Positions 6,800 through 31,209 of a DNA stretch of 64,000 nt are shown one piece after another. Made by a program: the position numbers and the translations under genes. The DNA comes from Caecibacter massiliensis. Its GTDB lineage: Bacteria; Bacillota; Negativicutes; Veillonellales; Megasphaeraceae. The stretch lies in the NCBI GenBank assembly GCA_900095875.1, contig LT608311.1, positions 62,001 to 126,000 of the forward strand. Reading direction: 5' to 3'. Numbering within the stretch: position 1 is the first letter of the stretch; each line of letters opens with the position of its first letter. Under the pieces are notes generated by a model, which saw only the letters and a list, made by a program, of their open reading frames with translations, was not told the DNA's origin and searched no databases.

Positions 6800-6826
6800 G
6801 CACACTAAATAAACACGTCCGTGCTG

Positions 6827-6950
6827 TCTTTTCCCATCCAGACTATACTGTCGGTACCGAAATCCCATCGGTTCAGCTCCCATAAGGAGTTAGCGGACTC
6901 TACCGCCGGTCAGGAATTGAAAGCGTCGCTTTCTCACCTTGCCCCAAAGA
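6827..6950 (-). ncRNA. FMN riboswitch (RFN element)
   Basis: The minus strand carries the conserved RFN blocks in order: GGGGCAAGGTGAG, AATTCCTGACCGGCGGTAGAG, GATGGGATTTCGGTACCGACAGT and AGTCTGGATGGGA. The P1 stem closes with TCTTT at 6946-6950 and AAAGA at 6827-6831. FMN binding should favour the downstream terminator and lower ribD-ribE-ribH expression. The match is close enough to be certain of the class. Confidence 0.97.
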
Positions 6951-6982
6951 CTATTTCTATTCAGTTCTTTCATACAAAAGAC

Positions 6983-24396: not shown

Positions 24397-24503
24397 ACGA
24401 TAAACAGAACACGTTGCTGAAACGTAAAGAGATTTAGCAGTTGTAAAACAGCCGCAAAAAACGTAAAATAAAAGATGTAGAAAAACGTTTATCGTAAAGG
24501 AGG
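24397..24503 (+). promoter_or_regulatory. Long-range inverted repeat ending at a ribosome-binding site
   Basis: ACGATAAAC (24397-24405) is exactly complementary to GTTTATCGT (24487-24495), closing an 81-base loop. The second arm touches the AAAGGAGG site at 24496-24503 of the repeat-protein gene. Inside, GCTGAAA and TTTAGC can form a smaller hairpin, and AACGTAAA occurs twice. This may be a structured leader that affects ribosome access. It is an observation only. Confidence 0.45.
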
Positions 24504-24514
24504 TGCCTGAAGCC

Positions 24515-25363
24515 GTGTACAATACTAACGTATCGGTTCCACCGCCAAATACAAAAAGTGCAGAAGACTACATGCGAATGATCAAGATCAATCCATTTTC
24601 CCTGCAGCACATTCCCAATCCTACAGAAGAAATGAAATTGACCGCTCTGCGCGAAAACGGACTGGTTCTGGAGTTTATTGACAATCCGACAAAAGAAATG
24701 AAACTGACTGCTTTAAAAAATACAGCAAAAGCCATCCAGTTCATTCCCAATGCCCCTAAAGAATTATTGAAACAAGCCGTGCACAAAAGCTGGACAAACC
24801 TGGCATACATCAAACATCCGCCGGAATGGCTCATCATGGAAGCCATCCAGCAGTCAGGATGGGCTATCCAGTATGCAGAAAACCCCAGTGAAGAATTGCA
24901 GCTCGCTGCCATACGGCAAAATTACGATGCCATCCGCTACATCAAACATCCGACGCCTCACGTCCAGGCAGCGGCGGCCGCCATTAACTACACCGCCCTG
25001 CGTTATATAGACAAACCTTCCTTCGAAGCGCAGTGCATTGCCATTGCCAATAATGAACAGGCAATCCGTTTATTTGTCGATACGGATAAAGAAACACTGC
25101 TTACATTTTTAAAAATCAATATTCTGGTCATCCGCTATCTGCCCCGCAACCGGCTCATCAGCAATGACGACCTGAAAAGTGTCCTGAAAGAAACATTATC
25201 CCAGGAAGATGTGCCGGAAAAATATGTACGGGATTTCATTGGCTGCCGGCGCATCGAAACAGACTATGGCTGGAGTCCGATCGATAAATTATTATTCGTC
25301 TACCAATATGGGAGCCGGAAAGCCAAACAGGTTACGGTCGATGAAAAATTAAAGATTCAATAA
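24515..25363 (+). CDS. Protein of tandem 22-residue helical repeats
   Basis: An unnamed protein of about 282 residues. Eight exact 22-residue units span bases 24611-25138, preceded by a degenerate ninth. The pattern is I-x-N/H-P-S/T-x-E-x-x-x-x-A-I/L, a gap of five, then A-I-R/Q-Y/F, for example IDNPTKEMKLTALKN and AENPSEELQLAAIRQN. It recalls DUF4116-type repeats and should form a helical solenoid, so a binding scaffold is likely. A different 74-residue domain with a basic end follows (FIGCRRIETDYGWSP). GTG 24515 is chosen 11 bases after AGGAGG; GTG 24503 lies within that site. It precedes the MoxR and VWA genes by 168 bases. Confidence 0.85.
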   Translation: MYNTNVSVPPPNTKSAEDYMRMIKINPFSLQHIPNPTEEMKLTALRENGLVLEFIDNPTKEMKLTALKNTAKAIQFIPNAPKELLKQAVHKSWTNLAYIKHPPEWLIMEAIQQSGWAIQYAENPSEELQLAAIRQNYDAIRYIKHPTPHVQAAAAAINYTALRYIDKPSFEAQCIAIANNEQAIRLFVDTDKETLLTFLKINILVIRYLPRNRLISNDDLKSVLKETLSQEDVPEKYVRDFIGCRRIETDYGWSPIDKLLFVYQYGSRKAKQVTVDEKLKIQ

Positions 25364-25531
25364 AAGATTCCCCACGTGCCACAGGAAAATCAGCTATTTC
25401 TTCTTTACCATTTGCTGGTCATCATTTATTATTGTATTATTAGATAGTAGTATTAAGATATAATTTTTATATCATATAATATTGTTTTATTAGATTTTTA
25501 TTAGATTTTACAGAGATAGGATGGAATATTC

Positions 25532-26608
25532 ATGAATTATAATGACACACTGCAAAGTGTAAAACTCGTTTTAGCCGCTCAGGCGGTTCCACTTCTCATC
25601 GGGGAAACAGGGATTGGCAAGACAGCCCTGGCTACGGATCTGGCGGCAGAAAACGGATGGACACTCATCGATATTGATGGCAATATTTTAAAGGAAGGCG
25701 AAATCGGCGGCCTGCCTACCGTCGAAAACCGTACGACCGTCTATGCCATTCATCACAAACTGAAAGAAATCGATGAAGCTCTGGCTGAAGGAAAAACAGT
25801 TCTCCTCTTCATCGACGAAATCAACCGCTGCGAACACGCCGTACAACAGGAACTGATGAACCTCATACTCAATCATGAAATCAATGGATACCACCTTGAC
25901 GAAAGCGTACGTATCATCGCCGCCATGAACCCCACGGATACCTATGATTATCAGACTGTAGAAATGGATGATGCCCAGAAAAACCGTTTTGTCTGGCTGT
26001 ATATGGAACCGGATTACATGCAGTGGCTGGACTGGGCTGCCACTAAGGGAATCGAACCGCGGGTCATGGAATTTATTTCCACCTTCCCCGACTATCTGTC
26101 ACAGCGCAATGAAGACGATATCAATGCGACACCGCGCAGTTACGAACGGATTTCCGATATTTACCGTATTTATGCCAAACATCCTGAATCCTATACAAGG
26201 AACGTATTTTTCAATGTAATCCGCGGTAATGTAGGAAAGGTCATTGCCGAAGAATTCGTCAACTTCATCGAATCCGACGCCCAGCCGCTCGTGTCATACG
26301 CCGATGTGTTTTCCAGTCCGTCCATGACCGCAGAAACAATCAAAAAGATCGAGAACGAATCCCACACCCGGCTGTATCTGGCAGCCAAAAATATCCTGCG
26401 CCAGCTTGACAGCAAGCTCATAGAAGGTGCCATCGATCCCAATCAGGCAATCGAACGGCTGGTGACATTCCTGCACTATTATCCGGTCGATCTCATGATA
26501 GGCGTAATGAAAGATATCCGCAATAACACGAAAGAAGTCGGAAAATACGCCCTGAAGAATGACCATTTTATTGATGCTTATTTTAAAACCTATGAAGCAA
26601 TCGGGTGA
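25532..26608 (+). CDS. MoxR-type AAA+ ATPase
   Basis: A 358-residue cytosolic ATPase. Walker A is GETGIGKT (24-31), Walker B LLFIDEINR (91-99), sensor 1 lies in IIAAMNPTD (Asn133) and a possible arginine finger in QKNRFVW. A helical lid follows. MoxR ATPases act as chaperones that remodel or load metal into partners and are usually paired with a VWA-domain protein, as here: the next gene overlaps by 4 bases (GTGA). The spaced leader 25364-25531 is A+T-rich and may hold an additional promoter. RavA is a relative, but this protein is shorter and lacks its C-terminal arm. Confidence 0.92.
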   Translation: MNYNDTLQSVKLVLAAQAVPLLIGETGIGKTALATDLAAENGWTLIDIDGNILKEGEIGGLPTVENRTTVYAIHHKLKEIDEALAEGKTVLLFIDEINRCEHAVQQELMNLILNHEINGYHLDESVRIIAAMNPTDTYDYQTVEMDDAQKNRFVWLYMEPDYMQWLDWAATKGIEPRVMEFISTFPDYLSQRNEDDINATPRSYERISDIYRIYAKHPESYTRNVFFNVIRGNVGKVIAEEFVNFIESDAQPLVSYADVFSSPSMTAETIKKIENESHTRLYLAAKNILRQLDSKLIEGAIDPNQAIERLVTFLHYYPVDLMIGVMKDIRNNTKEVGKYALKNDHFIDAYFKTYEAIG

Positions 26609-28023
26609 TTGTATTGGATAAACAACTCCGTACCGAGGCCATACTCCTCGACCAAAAACTGAACCAATGGGCCGATAATGAAATGCGCCTTTCCGATAAG
26701 GCCTGCCGGGCAAAAGACTTACCGGCAGACTTTGTGCGGGAATTCTTCGAATTTGTCAGCAAAATCAGTTTGAAACTGCTCGATGACAAAGATAATTTCT
26801 ATGGATACTTCTTTTTCCAGATGGGAAAAGAAATCCGCCTCAATATCGGTTCGGCCACGGCGACGAATTTCAAGGGAGCTAAATACGTCATGTATTTCAA
26901 TCCCTTCATCTTCCTGCCTTTGACCATCGAACAGATGGGGAACTGTATACGCCACGAAATCCTGCACATTGTGTTCCAGCATCTGCAGCGGGCCAAAGAC
27001 CTTCAGGATCATTACAGCAAGCTGGCCCTGAACCTGGCCATGGATATCGTCGTCAACACTTACCTGCGTCCCCTTCCCGATGATGCGGCAACGCTCGACT
27101 GGGTCAATCTGCAGTACCACCTCTATCTTACGCCGTTCGGAACTCTGGAAGATTATGTACAGGAAATACAGGAAGCCATTGATAAACGGGAAAAGACGAC
27201 GACTATCACCAATGAGGATAATACGGCTGATACAGATATCCTGACCAAATTCGACCCTCTGCGCACTCATGATGTCTGGAATGAATCAGACACAATCGAT
27301 GCCCAGCTTCTGGGACGATTCACAGAAAAATATGTCGATGCCGCAAGCCGGGGCAAATTGTCGGATCATATTGCCAATGCCATAGCCCAGATCAAGGACA
27401 GCAATCATACTCTTCCCTGGCACTTCTATTTAAAGAAACTCGCCGGTACGGTAGCCAGCGGCAATAAAAAAACGACGGCCCGCCGCAACCGCCGTCAGCC
27501 GGAACGACTGGACCTGCGGGGCCAGCTGCGCAACTATAAGGCAAAGATATATATTGCCCTCGATATCAGCGGCAGTATCAGTGATGATGAATTCAAACAG
27601 GCAATGGAAGAAGTCTTCCAGATTGTACGGGAATATAAAACGGAAATCACTATCATACAATGTGACGACCACATCCGCAAAGTATATACCGTCCGGACAA
27701 TCAAAGACCTGCAGGCCCGTCCTGCCGGGCGGGGTGGCACCTGTTATGCACCGGTCATCGAATACGCTAATAAACATAAAATAGACCTTCTTCTCTATTT
27801 CACCGATGGAAAAGGAGAAGACAAGCTGCGTACCATTCCATCAGGCTACAAGATACTCTGGCTCATTGGCGGCAACGGGGATGAATTGTCTCTCGACAAC
27901 CCCTATGGCATTGTCAAACGGCTTCATCCGCTGGAAGAAGAAAACTCGGCTGCAGAATTTTTCTTCGTCGAAAAAGGCGGATATTCCATGAATAATCAGG
28001 AAGGAATCAGCCTGAATTTCTAA
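26605..28023 (+). CDS. Zincin-like plus VWA domain protein (DUF2201 type)
   Basis: The 472-residue protein has two parts. The N-terminal half has a metallopeptidase-like motif, RHEILHIVFQH (HEILH at 117-121), then ALNLAMDIVVN, an arrangement of DUF2201-type domains. The C-terminal half, from about 312, is a VWA fold with MIDAS DISGSIS (320-326), Thr379 in GGTCY and Asp401 in FTDGKG. A basic linker (about 288-302) joins them. It starts with GTG overlapping the MoxR stop, so the two are translationally coupled. The metal site looks complete, so protease activity is possible but not shown. The third partner is probably the upstream repeat protein. Confidence 0.9.
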   Translation: MIVLDKQLRTEAILLDQKLNQWADNEMRLSDKACRAKDLPADFVREFFEFVSKISLKLLDDKDNFYGYFFFQMGKEIRLNIGSATATNFKGAKYVMYFNPFIFLPLTIEQMGNCIRHEILHIVFQHLQRAKDLQDHYSKLALNLAMDIVVNTYLRPLPDDAATLDWVNLQYHLYLTPFGTLEDYVQEIQEAIDKREKTTTITNEDNTADTDILTKFDPLRTHDVWNESDTIDAQLLGRFTEKYVDAASRGKLSDHIANAIAQIKDSNHTLPWHFYLKKLAGTVASGNKKTTARRNRRQPERLDLRGQLRNYKAKIYIALDISGSISDDEFKQAMEEVFQIVREYKTEITIIQCDDHIRKVYTVRTIKDLQARPAGRGGTCYAPVIEYANKHKIDLLLYFTDGKGEDKLRTIPSGYKILWLIGGNGDELSLDNPYGIVKRLHPLEEENSAAEFFFVEKGGYSMNNQEGISLNF

Positions 28024-28407
28024 ATGCAGACCTTTGCAGGGTTTGTGAAATTTATCTCAATTAGTACATATTGACATATATCGTTTATTATACAATGTAT
28101 TCTCGAACGCGTTCGTAAATACATATTTTAAATGTGATAGGTAATTGTGTATTCTGTTTAGGAAATATTGGAGAATAAATATGAGTATTTGGTATAGAAT
28201 TCCTTCAATTTTTACTTGCAAATCCATGTGAAAAAATGTACTATATACACATAGAGATTGTGAAATTTAGAACTCAGCTTTTTCATTCAGAAAGAGAGCT
28301 CCATCACAATCCCCAAGCACCAGGATATAAATAGTGTCTATGTGGCAGATATTACATCTACTAACAGATATACTATTTTATTTGTACTCAGAAAGGGTGG
28401 TTTTTCA
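28024..28407 (+). promoter_or_regulatory. Long regulatory leader of thlA
   Basis: The best promoter is TTGCAA (28216-28221) and TACTAT (28239-28244) with a 17-base spacer, giving a leader of about 155 bases. The 12-mer TTGTGAAATTTA occurs at 28043-28054 and again at 28258-28269. The first is part of TTGTGA-N6-TCTCAA (28043-28060), close to the operator of the redox repressor Rex. The transcript can form a hairpin from GATTGTGA (28256-28263) and TCACAATC (28304-28311), with an inner stem at 28276-28283 and 28293-28300. Rex control is an inference. Confidence 0.55.
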
Positions 28408-29601
28408 ATGAAAAATGTAGTCATCGTAAGTGCAGCTCGTACTCCTATCGGCAGCTTCAACGGCCAGTTCAAAGACGTAACAGCTGTCCAGCTCGGTATC
28501 GTTGCTGTTAAAGCTGCTATCGAACGTGCTAAAGTTCCTGTAGATCAGATTGATGAAGTTATCATGGGTCATGTTCTGACAGCTGGCTGCGGCGAAAACA
28601 CAGCCCGCCAGGTAGCTCTCCATTCCGGTATTCCTCAGGAAGTTCCTGCATTTACTATCAATAAACTGTGCGGGTCCGGCCTTCGTGCTGTATCCCTCGG
28701 CGCTCAGCAGATTGAACTCGGCGACGCTGACTGCGTAATCGTCGGCGGTATGGAATCCATGTCCAACGCTCCGTATGTTATCGCAAAAGCACGCCGTGGC
28801 TATCGTATGGGCAATGGTGTCCTCGAAGATACGATGCTCCGTGATGGCCTGGTTTGCACAGAAAATGGCTACCACATGGGCGTAACGGCAGAAAACATCG
28901 CATCCCGCTTTGGCGTAACCCGTCAGCAGCAGGATGAATGCGCTTACAATTCCCAGATGCGTGCTGCCAAAGCCCAGGCTGAAGGCAAATTCGATGCTCA
29001 GATCGCTCCTGTAACGATCCACAACCGCAAAAAAGGCGATATCGTCATTACGAAGGATGAACATATCCGTCCGGAAACCACACTGGAAGGCCTCGCTAAA
29101 TTAAAACCGGCTTTCACAAAAGACGGCACAGTTACAGCTGGTAACGCTTCCGGTATCAACGATGCTGCTTGCGCACTGGTTCTCATGAGCAAGAAAAAAG
29201 CCGAAGAACTCGGTATCAAACCGATTGCTGAAATCCTCGACTGGGCTTCAGCAGGTGTTGAACCGGCTATCATGGGTACTGGTCCTATCCCGGCCTGCCA
29301 TAAACTGTTCAAGAAAACCGGCCTCAAAATGGAAGACTTCGAACTGGTTGAATTGAACGAAGCTTTCGCAGCTCAGGCTGTATATTGCTGCCAGCAGCTC
29401 GGCGCTGACATGAGCAAAACAAACATCTATGGTTCCGGTATCTCCCTCGGTCACCCCGTAGGCTGCTCCGGTGCCCGTATCCTCACGACTCTGCTCTATG
29501 CATTGGCAGAACCGGGCCGCAATGGTTCCCGTTATGGCCTCGCTTCCCTGTGCATCGGCGGTGGCCAGGGTACAGCCGTAGCAATTAAAATGTGCGACTA
29601 A
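28408..29601 (+). CDS. thlA: Acetyl-CoA acetyltransferase (thiolase)
   Basis: Condenses two acetyl-CoA to acetoacetyl-CoA, the entry to butyrate and longer fatty-acid formation in fermentative anaerobes; cytosolic tetramer. The 397-residue protein has the acylated Cys88 in NKLCGSG, His349 in GHPVGCSG and Cys382 in CIGGGQG. ATG 28408 is used with AAAGGGTGG upstream; a longer in-frame extension into the leader is not family-like. Codons are strikingly biased to a few forms (GCT, GTT, CGT, GGC), as in a highly expressed gene. It has its own promoter and terminator, so it appears monocistronic. Confidence 0.97.
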   Translation: MKNVVIVSAARTPIGSFNGQFKDVTAVQLGIVAVKAAIERAKVPVDQIDEVIMGHVLTAGCGENTARQVALHSGIPQEVPAFTINKLCGSGLRAVSLGAQQIELGDADCVIVGGMESMSNAPYVIAKARRGYRMGNGVLEDTMLRDGLVCTENGYHMGVTAENIASRFGVTRQQQDECAYNSQMRAAKAQAEGKFDAQIAPVTIHNRKKGDIVITKDEHIRPETTLEGLAKLKPAFTKDGTVTAGNASGINDAACALVLMSKKKAEELGIKPIAEILDWASAGVEPAIMGTGPIPACHKLFKKTGLKMEDFELVELNEAFAAQAVYCCQQLGADMSKTNIYGSGISLGHPVGCSGARILTTLLYALAEPGRNGSRYGLASLCIGGGQGTAVAIKMCD

Positions 29602-29871: not shown

Positions 29872-31209
29872 ATGAAAACTTCACGTCGTAAAATGTCTTT
29901 GGTTCAGCTGACCTTTGTAGCAGCGGCCAACATGCTCGGTGCCGGCATCATCATGCTGCCGACGAAACTTGCCGAAGTAGGCACGATTTCGATTATTTCC
30001 TGGATTATTACTTCTCTCGGCTCTTTAGCCCTGGCACTGACGTTCGCCCGATGTGGTATGTTCTCTACCAAGCCGGGTGGCATGGGAGGTTATGCTGAGT
30101 ATCGGTTCGGATGTCTTGGACATTTCATGACAAGTTATTCCTATTCCGTCTCTATTGTCATTGCAAACGTAGCTATTGCTATTTCAGCCGTCGGTTATGG
30201 TGCTGGCTTCTTTGGCACTGAACTGACGCCGTTACAGACATGTCTATATACTATAGCACTTCTTTGGATTGCTGCTGCACTTAACTTCAGCGGTTCACGT
30301 TACTCCGGCAAACTAAGCACGATAACTATCTGGGGAGCCATTATCCCTGTTCTGGGTATTTCCCTCATCGGCTGGTACTGGTTCGATCCCCAGCTGTGGG
30401 TCAGCTCATGGAATCCGAACCATTTTGGTCTTGGGGACGCTATTGGCAATTCTATCGCCCTCACGCTCTGGTCCTTCCTGGGATTTGAATCGGCAGCTGT
30501 CAATATGGATGCCGTAGAAAACCCGCAGCGTGCCGTCCCCATTGCGACCTTCGTCAGCACCGTTGCCGTTGCCATCATCTACGTAGCATCGACCAACGTC
30601 ATTGCCGGTGTCGTTCCCAACAACGATATCCTCAATTCAAGTGCTCCGTTCGGCCTGGCTTTCGCCACCATGCTCGGTTCTACAGCAGGCAAAGCGGTCA
30701 TGGGACTCATGGTCTTCTCCTGTGCCGGCTCTCTTCTTTCCTGGCAGTTTACGCTGGCCCGGGTCTTTAAAACAAGTGCTCAGCGCGGTCTGTTCCCGAA
30801 GGTATTTGCCAAAGTTACCGATGCCGATGTTCCTCTTAAAGGCATGATGCTCATCCTGGTCATGCAGAGCTTCTTATCCCTTATGACCATCAGCCCGACT
30901 CTGGCCGAACAATTTGAAAACCTCGCAAACCTGGCTGTCGTTACTAACGTAATTCCTTATATTCTCTGTTCAGCAGCCCTCAAATCCATTCTGGACACAG
31001 AAGGGATCTCCAATGCCCAGTGCAACCGGAATACGGCTTATTTCTTTGCCGGTGTTTCCATCATCTATTGTTTCTATGCTATGACGACACTGGATCTGCC
31101 CACCTTCCTCGGTGGCTGTACCGCTGTCTTCATTGGCTGGATGACTTATGTAGTGCGTTTCGTCATCATGAAACAGCCATTTATGCAGGAACAGCGTGCA
31201 AAAAGCTGA
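29872..31209 (+). CDS. potE: Putrescine:ornithine antiporter, PotE type
   Basis: Inner-membrane APC-superfamily exchanger of 445 residues with about 12 membrane helices. Long stretches match what I know of E. coli PotE: MLGAGIIMLPTKLAEVGTIS, the CGMFS-GGMGGYAEY region, ANVAIAISAVGYG, STNVIAGVVPN and LAVVTNIIPYI-like LAVVTNVIPYI. It probably exchanges putrescine for ornithine, or a related diamine/amino-acid pair such as cadaverine/lysine. No ornithine or lysine decarboxylase gene is adjacent, so the substrate cannot be fixed by context. AAAGGA precedes the ATG. Confidence 0.9.
   Translation: MKTSRRKMSLVQLTFVAAANMLGAGIIMLPTKLAEVGTISIISWIITSLGSLALALTFARCGMFSTKPGGMGGYAEYRFGCLGHFMTSYSYSVSIVIANVAIAISAVGYGAGFFGTELTPLQTCLYTIALLWIAAALNFSGSRYSGKLSTITIWGAIIPVLGISLIGWYWFDPQLWVSSWNPNHFGLGDAIGNSIALTLWSFLGFESAAVNMDAVENPQRAVPIATFVSTVAVAIIYVASTNVIAGVVPNNDILNSSAPFGLAFATMLGSTAGKAVMGLMVFSCAGSLLSWQFTLARVFKTSAQRGLFPKVFAKVTDADVPLKGMMLILVMQSFLSLMTISPTLAEQFENLANLAVVTNVIPYILCSAALKSILDTEGISNAQCNRNTAYFFAGVSIIYCFYAMTTLDLPTFLGGCTAVFIGWMTYVVRFVIMKQPFMQEQRAKS

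Follow-up and report, generated by a model that had tools for sequence, protein, structure and literature searches.

Here we describe a three-gene unit of Caecibacter massiliensis, located in a 64,000-nucleotide window (contig LT608311.1, positions 62,001 to 126,000), which encodes an alpha-solenoid repeat protein (REP), a MoxR-type AAA+ ATPase (AAA) and a protein that joins a zincin-like metallopeptidase domain to a VWA domain (VWA). These genes make up a genuine functional unit: the trio recurs in fixed order at more than 100 loci, far beyond chance, and accidental linkage is untenable because several families and changing neighbourhoods carry it. It is apparently a genuine, widespread three-part MoxR machine that was previously undescribed. 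In the open-licence literature we found no description of a DUF4116-MoxR-DUF2201 trio and no paper joining DUF4116 with a MoxR-VWA pair, in line with the earlier note on this DNA, which knew of none. We lean slightly towards a dedicated ATP-driven protein-remodelling machine, with a MoxR ring, a VWA coupler and REP as a client adaptor attached through a short tail.

The genes lie in the order REP, AAA, VWA as plus-strand open reading frames at 24515-28023 (Table 1). The GTG at 24515, which follows a AAAGGAGG ribosome-binding site by about 10 bases, makes the better start for REP, and the 4-base overlap reported earlier between the last two genes (GTGA) was confirmed. The earlier description of three plus-strand genes stands, and that of nearly all-minus surroundings is corrected: the trio opens a plus-strand run that continues with the thiolase (28342-29601) and permease (29872-31209) genes. 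In the window, 168 bp lie between REP and AAA, compared with about 10 bp in most relatives; this unusually long, AT-rich gap (25364-25531) contains TATTAGAT direct repeats as well as a promoter-like site (TTAAGA-16-TATAAT, 25453-25480). A perfect 9-nt inverted repeat, ACGATAAAC/GTTTATCGT (24397-24405 and 24487-24495), flanks the region upstream of REP and may be an operator or chance. No CIRCE or CtsR heat-shock operator was found upstream of the trio, and Rfam gave no match to an RNA leader or riboswitch there; elsewhere in the window an FMN riboswitch occupies 6822-6955 on the minus strand.

Table 1. Features of the REP-AAA-VWA trio in the window, and loci carrying the shared promoter element.
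Feature	Position	Strand	Remarks
REP, DUF4116 alpha-solenoid protein	24515..25363	+	282 aa from GTG at 24515; ORF opens at 24503
REP, nine 22-residue helix-pair repeats	24560..25138	+	AlphaFold2 helix boundaries; DUF4116 matches
REP, C-terminal helical cap	25139..25360	+	conserved in trio clade (R243, G270, L283)
AAA, MoxR-type AAA+ ATPase, motor	25532..26608	+	358 aa
VWA, zincin-like metallopeptidase domain and VWA domain (DUF2201_N and DUF2201)	26605..28023	+	472 aa
VWA, zinc-site motif HExxHxxxxH of zincin-like domain	26953..26982	+	H117, E118, H121, H126
VWA, arginine-rich segment directly before VWA core, candidate pore finger	27412..27531	+	RRNRRQPER; position analogous to NorD finger (PMC13036017)
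VWA, VWA core with full MIDAS	27544..27936	+	D320, S322, S324, T379, D401; fold match to VWA/I domains
VWA, C-terminal tail motif, candidate docking peptide	27976..28002	+	GGYSMNNQE; conserved, predicted disordered
TTTATAGACCCTTTTTTTATNCAGTGGTATAAT-type element upstream of REP	loci L112, L114, L119, L122-L124, L132, L136, L137, L145, L154, L174		

The identities proposed earlier for the three proteins hold. In Pfam, at E values up to 1, REP matches only DUF4116 (E = 7.7e-16, above the cut-off). Its AlphaFold2 model (mean pLDDT 93) is composed of nine helix pairs and a C-terminal helical cap; the pairs begin at residues 20, 42, 64, 86, 108, 130, 152, 174 and 196, so that the 22-residue period is exact across all nine. 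AAA matches AAA_5 above the Pfam cut-off (E = 1.3e-9) and AAA_3 below it, and VWA matches both DUF2201 (E = 6.3e-18) and the DUF2201_N metallopeptidase domain (E = 1.6e-6) above their cut-offs. Solved structures include none closely related in sequence to VWA or REP. The VWA core superposes on VWA/I domains (Z up to 12.9, 136 aligned residues, rmsd 3.2), and structural searches with REP, including Foldseek, returned generic solenoids only (best Z 7.0, with an rmsd of 11).

The motor and its partner are strictly conserved. Walker A and B, sensor 1, the arginine finger and sensor 2 of AAA are intact in all 102 homologues (K30, D95, E96, N133, R152 and R202 in 102/102; T31 is replaced by Ser in two), and in VWA both the MIDAS and the arginine-rich residues R293, R296, R297, Q298 and R301 are complete in 103/103, the region proposed as a finger being of low confidence in the predicted model. 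Domain architecture is uniform across about 103 VWA and 102 REP sequences.

The check across genomes bore out the association. REP and VWA are present in 17/17 genomes of the window's family; throughout Veillonellales, 39 genomes have both, 22 have neither and none has one alone, counts that come from related genomes and are not independent events. In all 38 other Veillonellales genomes, for which the loci were fetched, REP, AAA and VWA are adjacent, with identical order and strand. A scan of named Bacillota genomes used VWA peptides only, and REP was therefore not selected for; 78 of its 80 loci (from Megasphaera, Pelosinus, Desulfosporosinus, Romboutsia, C. difficile, Clostridium, Lachnospiraceae and others) carry the ordered trio, the other two being cut by contig ends. 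Full-length REP was found in 21/46 genomes of another family. Of 398 genomes sampled from the phylum, 15 have full-length REP, and these are precisely the 15 that have full-length VWA. The earlier idea that REP is tied to the pair thus survives for the full-length protein, never seen without VWA in those 398 genomes, and not for isolated DUF4116 repeats, which occur alone in phages and Bacteroides plasmids. The trio itself was not found on plasmids, its conserved peptides gave no relatives among viral contigs, and no fourth gene is conserved beyond it across genera. Apparent REP-AAA fusions in whole-genome matches (open frames of 645-660 aa) proved to be separate genes with a stop between them. 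In a Peptostreptococcaceae bacterium, an insert of about 2.5 kb with a group-II-intron-like reverse transcriptase/maturase lies inside the AAA gene (L126:4359-6893).

Trees of the trio proteins group mostly by taxonomic family. Nevertheless, past transfer between bacterial classes is likely from the sequence comparisons, because the trios of Pelosinus (Negativicutes) and Desulfosporosinus (Clostridia) are 83, 79 and 85% identical for AAA, VWA and REP, respectively, and have in common an extended -10 promoter element, about TTTATAGACCCTTTTTTTATNCAGTGGTATAAT, that is conserved across these classes. Elements of this type were single-copy in each of seven genomes tested.

The VWA tail and REP go together. 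Almost all of the 103 REP-linked VWAs end in a tail of consensus (G/D)G(Y/F)SMNNQE (S461 in 102, M462 in 100 and Q465 in 97 of 103), which is predicted to be disordered (pLDDT 31-44). The tail is absent from the VWAs of phages AR9 and LIT1, whose genomes gave no DUF4116 match, and from about 20 distant REP-less bacterial DUF2201 VWAs checked. A second locus in the same genome (C2:1313176-1315400; L066:5177-7401) carries REP2 and a tail-bearing VWA2, the two genes adjoining with a one-base overlap of stop and start (TAATG). Because this locus has no ATPase gene, and the genome carries a single AAA of the trio family, the pattern is most simply read as REP being the partner of VWA, with a single motor serving both REP-VWA pairs. 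REP probably docks on VWA through the C-terminal GGYSMNNQE tail, as judged from this co-distribution; the link is suggestive rather than proof, because tail and REP were both gained in one clade and are not statistically independent. By analogy, the tail might instead bind AAA, since the C-terminus of NorD binds its ATPase.

More distant MoxR-DUF2201 pairs have other neighbours. A BspA-type LRR_5 gene lies beside the pair in seven genomes (L220, L221, L230, L231, L232, L237 and L238, with L231 assigned by similarity to the other LRR_5 loci only), a pentapeptide-repeat gene is found 13 bp before the ATPase gene in L216, and VWA adjoins a TPR/DUF5107 gene in L222, a similar gene being present in L233. 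LRR matches among 2292 background ORFs fell only in these distant loci, with none in the flanks of trio loci. The Bacillota LRR_5- and pentapeptide-linked loci are thus like the trio in combining MoxR, a DUF2201 VWA and an adjoining repeat gene, but the repeat class differs, the tail is missing and the LRR-linked VWAs show no HExxH. The expectation of a fixed neighbour therefore held within the trio clade, where it is always REP, and failed beyond it, a result that refines the idea of a third part rather than refuting it. Since different repeat proteins often adjoin the distant pairs, the repeat adaptors of MoxR-DUF2201 pairs may be interchangeable; about half of the distant loci show no recognised repeat gene, so the neighbouring repeat genes are a lead and not a rule. 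Tentatively, and with somewhat more doubt than belief, we suggest that MoxR and zincin-VWA proteins form a wide class of remodelling machines in which the third subunit, a repeat protein that selects the client, can be exchanged (DUF4116, BspA-type LRR, pentapeptide or perhaps TPR), the VWA tail docking the DUF4116 branch.

In the remodelling machine that we favour, the MoxR ATPase would form the motor ring and VWA would be the coupling subunit, its arginine-rich segment inserting as a finger into the ring pore and its MIDAS contacting a partner or the client. The REP solenoid would serve as the adaptor for the client and be fixed to VWA, probably by the tail. Powered by ATP turnover, the machine would pull or twist the client brought by REP, and wherever the zinc site is intact it may clip this client too. 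This picture is modelled on NorQ-NorD, in which a finger of the VWA protein occupies the pore of the ring and the C-terminus of that protein touches the ring (PMC13036017). The analysis establishes the gene unit, its obligate co-occurrence, the conservation of key residues in motor, MIDAS and finger segment, a solenoid fold by prediction and a tail that accompanies REP; ring assembly, insertion of the finger, docking of the tail on REP and the existence of a client are inferred, and the evidence is all genomic or predicted. Of the earlier suggestion that the solenoid is a sensor or substrate-binding third part, its place as the obligate third part of a genuine three-part MoxR-VWA system is upheld, and an adaptor or substrate-binding role is the best inference. 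No client candidate was found for the machine. That every genome of some families has the trio speaks for cellular maintenance over defence, whereas its sparseness at the phylum level is not what a pure housekeeping role would predict.

A rather unlikely alternative is a regulated protease: REP would choose a client for unfolding by the AAA ring and cutting by the VWA zincin domain, and remodelling would be secondary. DUF2201_N carries a metallopeptidase annotation, HExxHxxxxH is intact in the window and in 87/103 VWAs overall, including all 65 named sequences (mostly Clostridia and Sporomusaceae), and the related jumbo-phage pairs have been proposed to serve virion assembly with peptidolytic processing (PMC7824862). 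However, 13 Veillonella-type (f4) VWAs read REHH, with Arg for the first His, and single sequences read HDHH, HQHH and QQHH, all with the whole trio kept; HExxH is likewise not seen in the LRR-linked subfamily. Cleavage is thus not an essential step everywhere, because the 13 sequences lose the first zinc-ligand His while the trio persists, and peptidase chemistry is probably not universal in the clade, as far as the motif tells. Some Veillonella-type VWA genes appeared broken by in-frame stops, but intact ORFs of 545-574 aa are present. Still less probable is a conflict or phage-defence system, in which REP would sense an invader and the MoxR-VWA pair would release or activate an effector. 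Its presence in only 15/398 genomes, the apparent transfer between classes and the proposed conflict role of related MoxR-VWA sets (PMC7159879) are what such a system might show, yet the trio is present in every genome of the window's family, REP is uniform, there is no effector domain, variable component or recurrent defence neighbour, and PADLOC gave no convincing match. In the four vWA-MoxR ternary systems published so far, the third part is VMAP, inactive STAND, FtsH or a beta-propeller protein (PMC7159879). They resemble the trio in their MoxR and VWA core with a conserved third protein and differ in that the third part here is a DUF4116 solenoid and the VWA has a zincin-like domain. None of their third components was found at the trio by Pfam or as a conserved fourth gene, and the VWA and REP sequences carry no variable effector domains. 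The conflict reading is therefore weak, and the membership raised in the earlier note is not supported: the third part is uniform and of no published type, and in some families the trio belongs to the core.

We regard as quite improbable a metal-insertion or cofactor chaperone of the NorQD/CbbQO kind, serving one metalloenzyme with REP as the enzyme-docking part. The trio is restricted to mainly anaerobic Bacillota and follows the motor-plus-VWA logic of NorQ-NorD; a finger segment and a C-terminal contact are possibly common to both, the likeness of the finger being that of a conserved segment in matching position only (PMC13036017). Unlike NorQ-NorD and CbbQ-CbbO, the trio has no nearby client enzyme genes, and it has an extra solenoid subunit and a zincin-like domain. 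Known metal-insertion sets usually adjoin their client genes. With no gene conserved beyond the trio, this role, which the earlier note had ranked as an equal alternative, has no neighbourhood support.

Phages carry homologous pairs of MoxR and zincin-VWA proteins with a conserved MIDAS (N4 gp24/gp25 type, Bacillus phages AR9/PBS1 and jumbo phages). AR9 AAA shows about 31% identity to trio AAA over 93%, and AR9 VWA 28% to trio VWA; the phage AAA gene lies beside VWA, with one gene between them in LIT1. The AR9 and LIT1 pairs differ from the trio in lacking both a DUF4116 match and the tail. Gp24 and gp25 are core genes of the N4 phage group (PMC4193335), and a role in virion assembly was proposed for the jumbo-phage pair (PMC7824862). 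Public records of PHROG 1314 proteins (for example, NC_013692 gp35) label the zincin-VWA protein an HNH endonuclease; the label is doubtful because the protein is homologous to a metallopeptidase-VWA protein, and this homology suggests that it is wrong.

The trio spans gut and soil Firmicutes, from gut Veillonella and Megasphaera to C. difficile relatives, Clostridium, Lachnospiraceae and sulfate reducers. It gives DUF4116 its first functional context and DUF2201 a partner, and its short tail motif makes the docking idea testable. Most likely, the trio grabs and reshapes one particular cell protein; if related pairs do swap repeat adaptors, it would represent a general class of client-selective MoxR machines.
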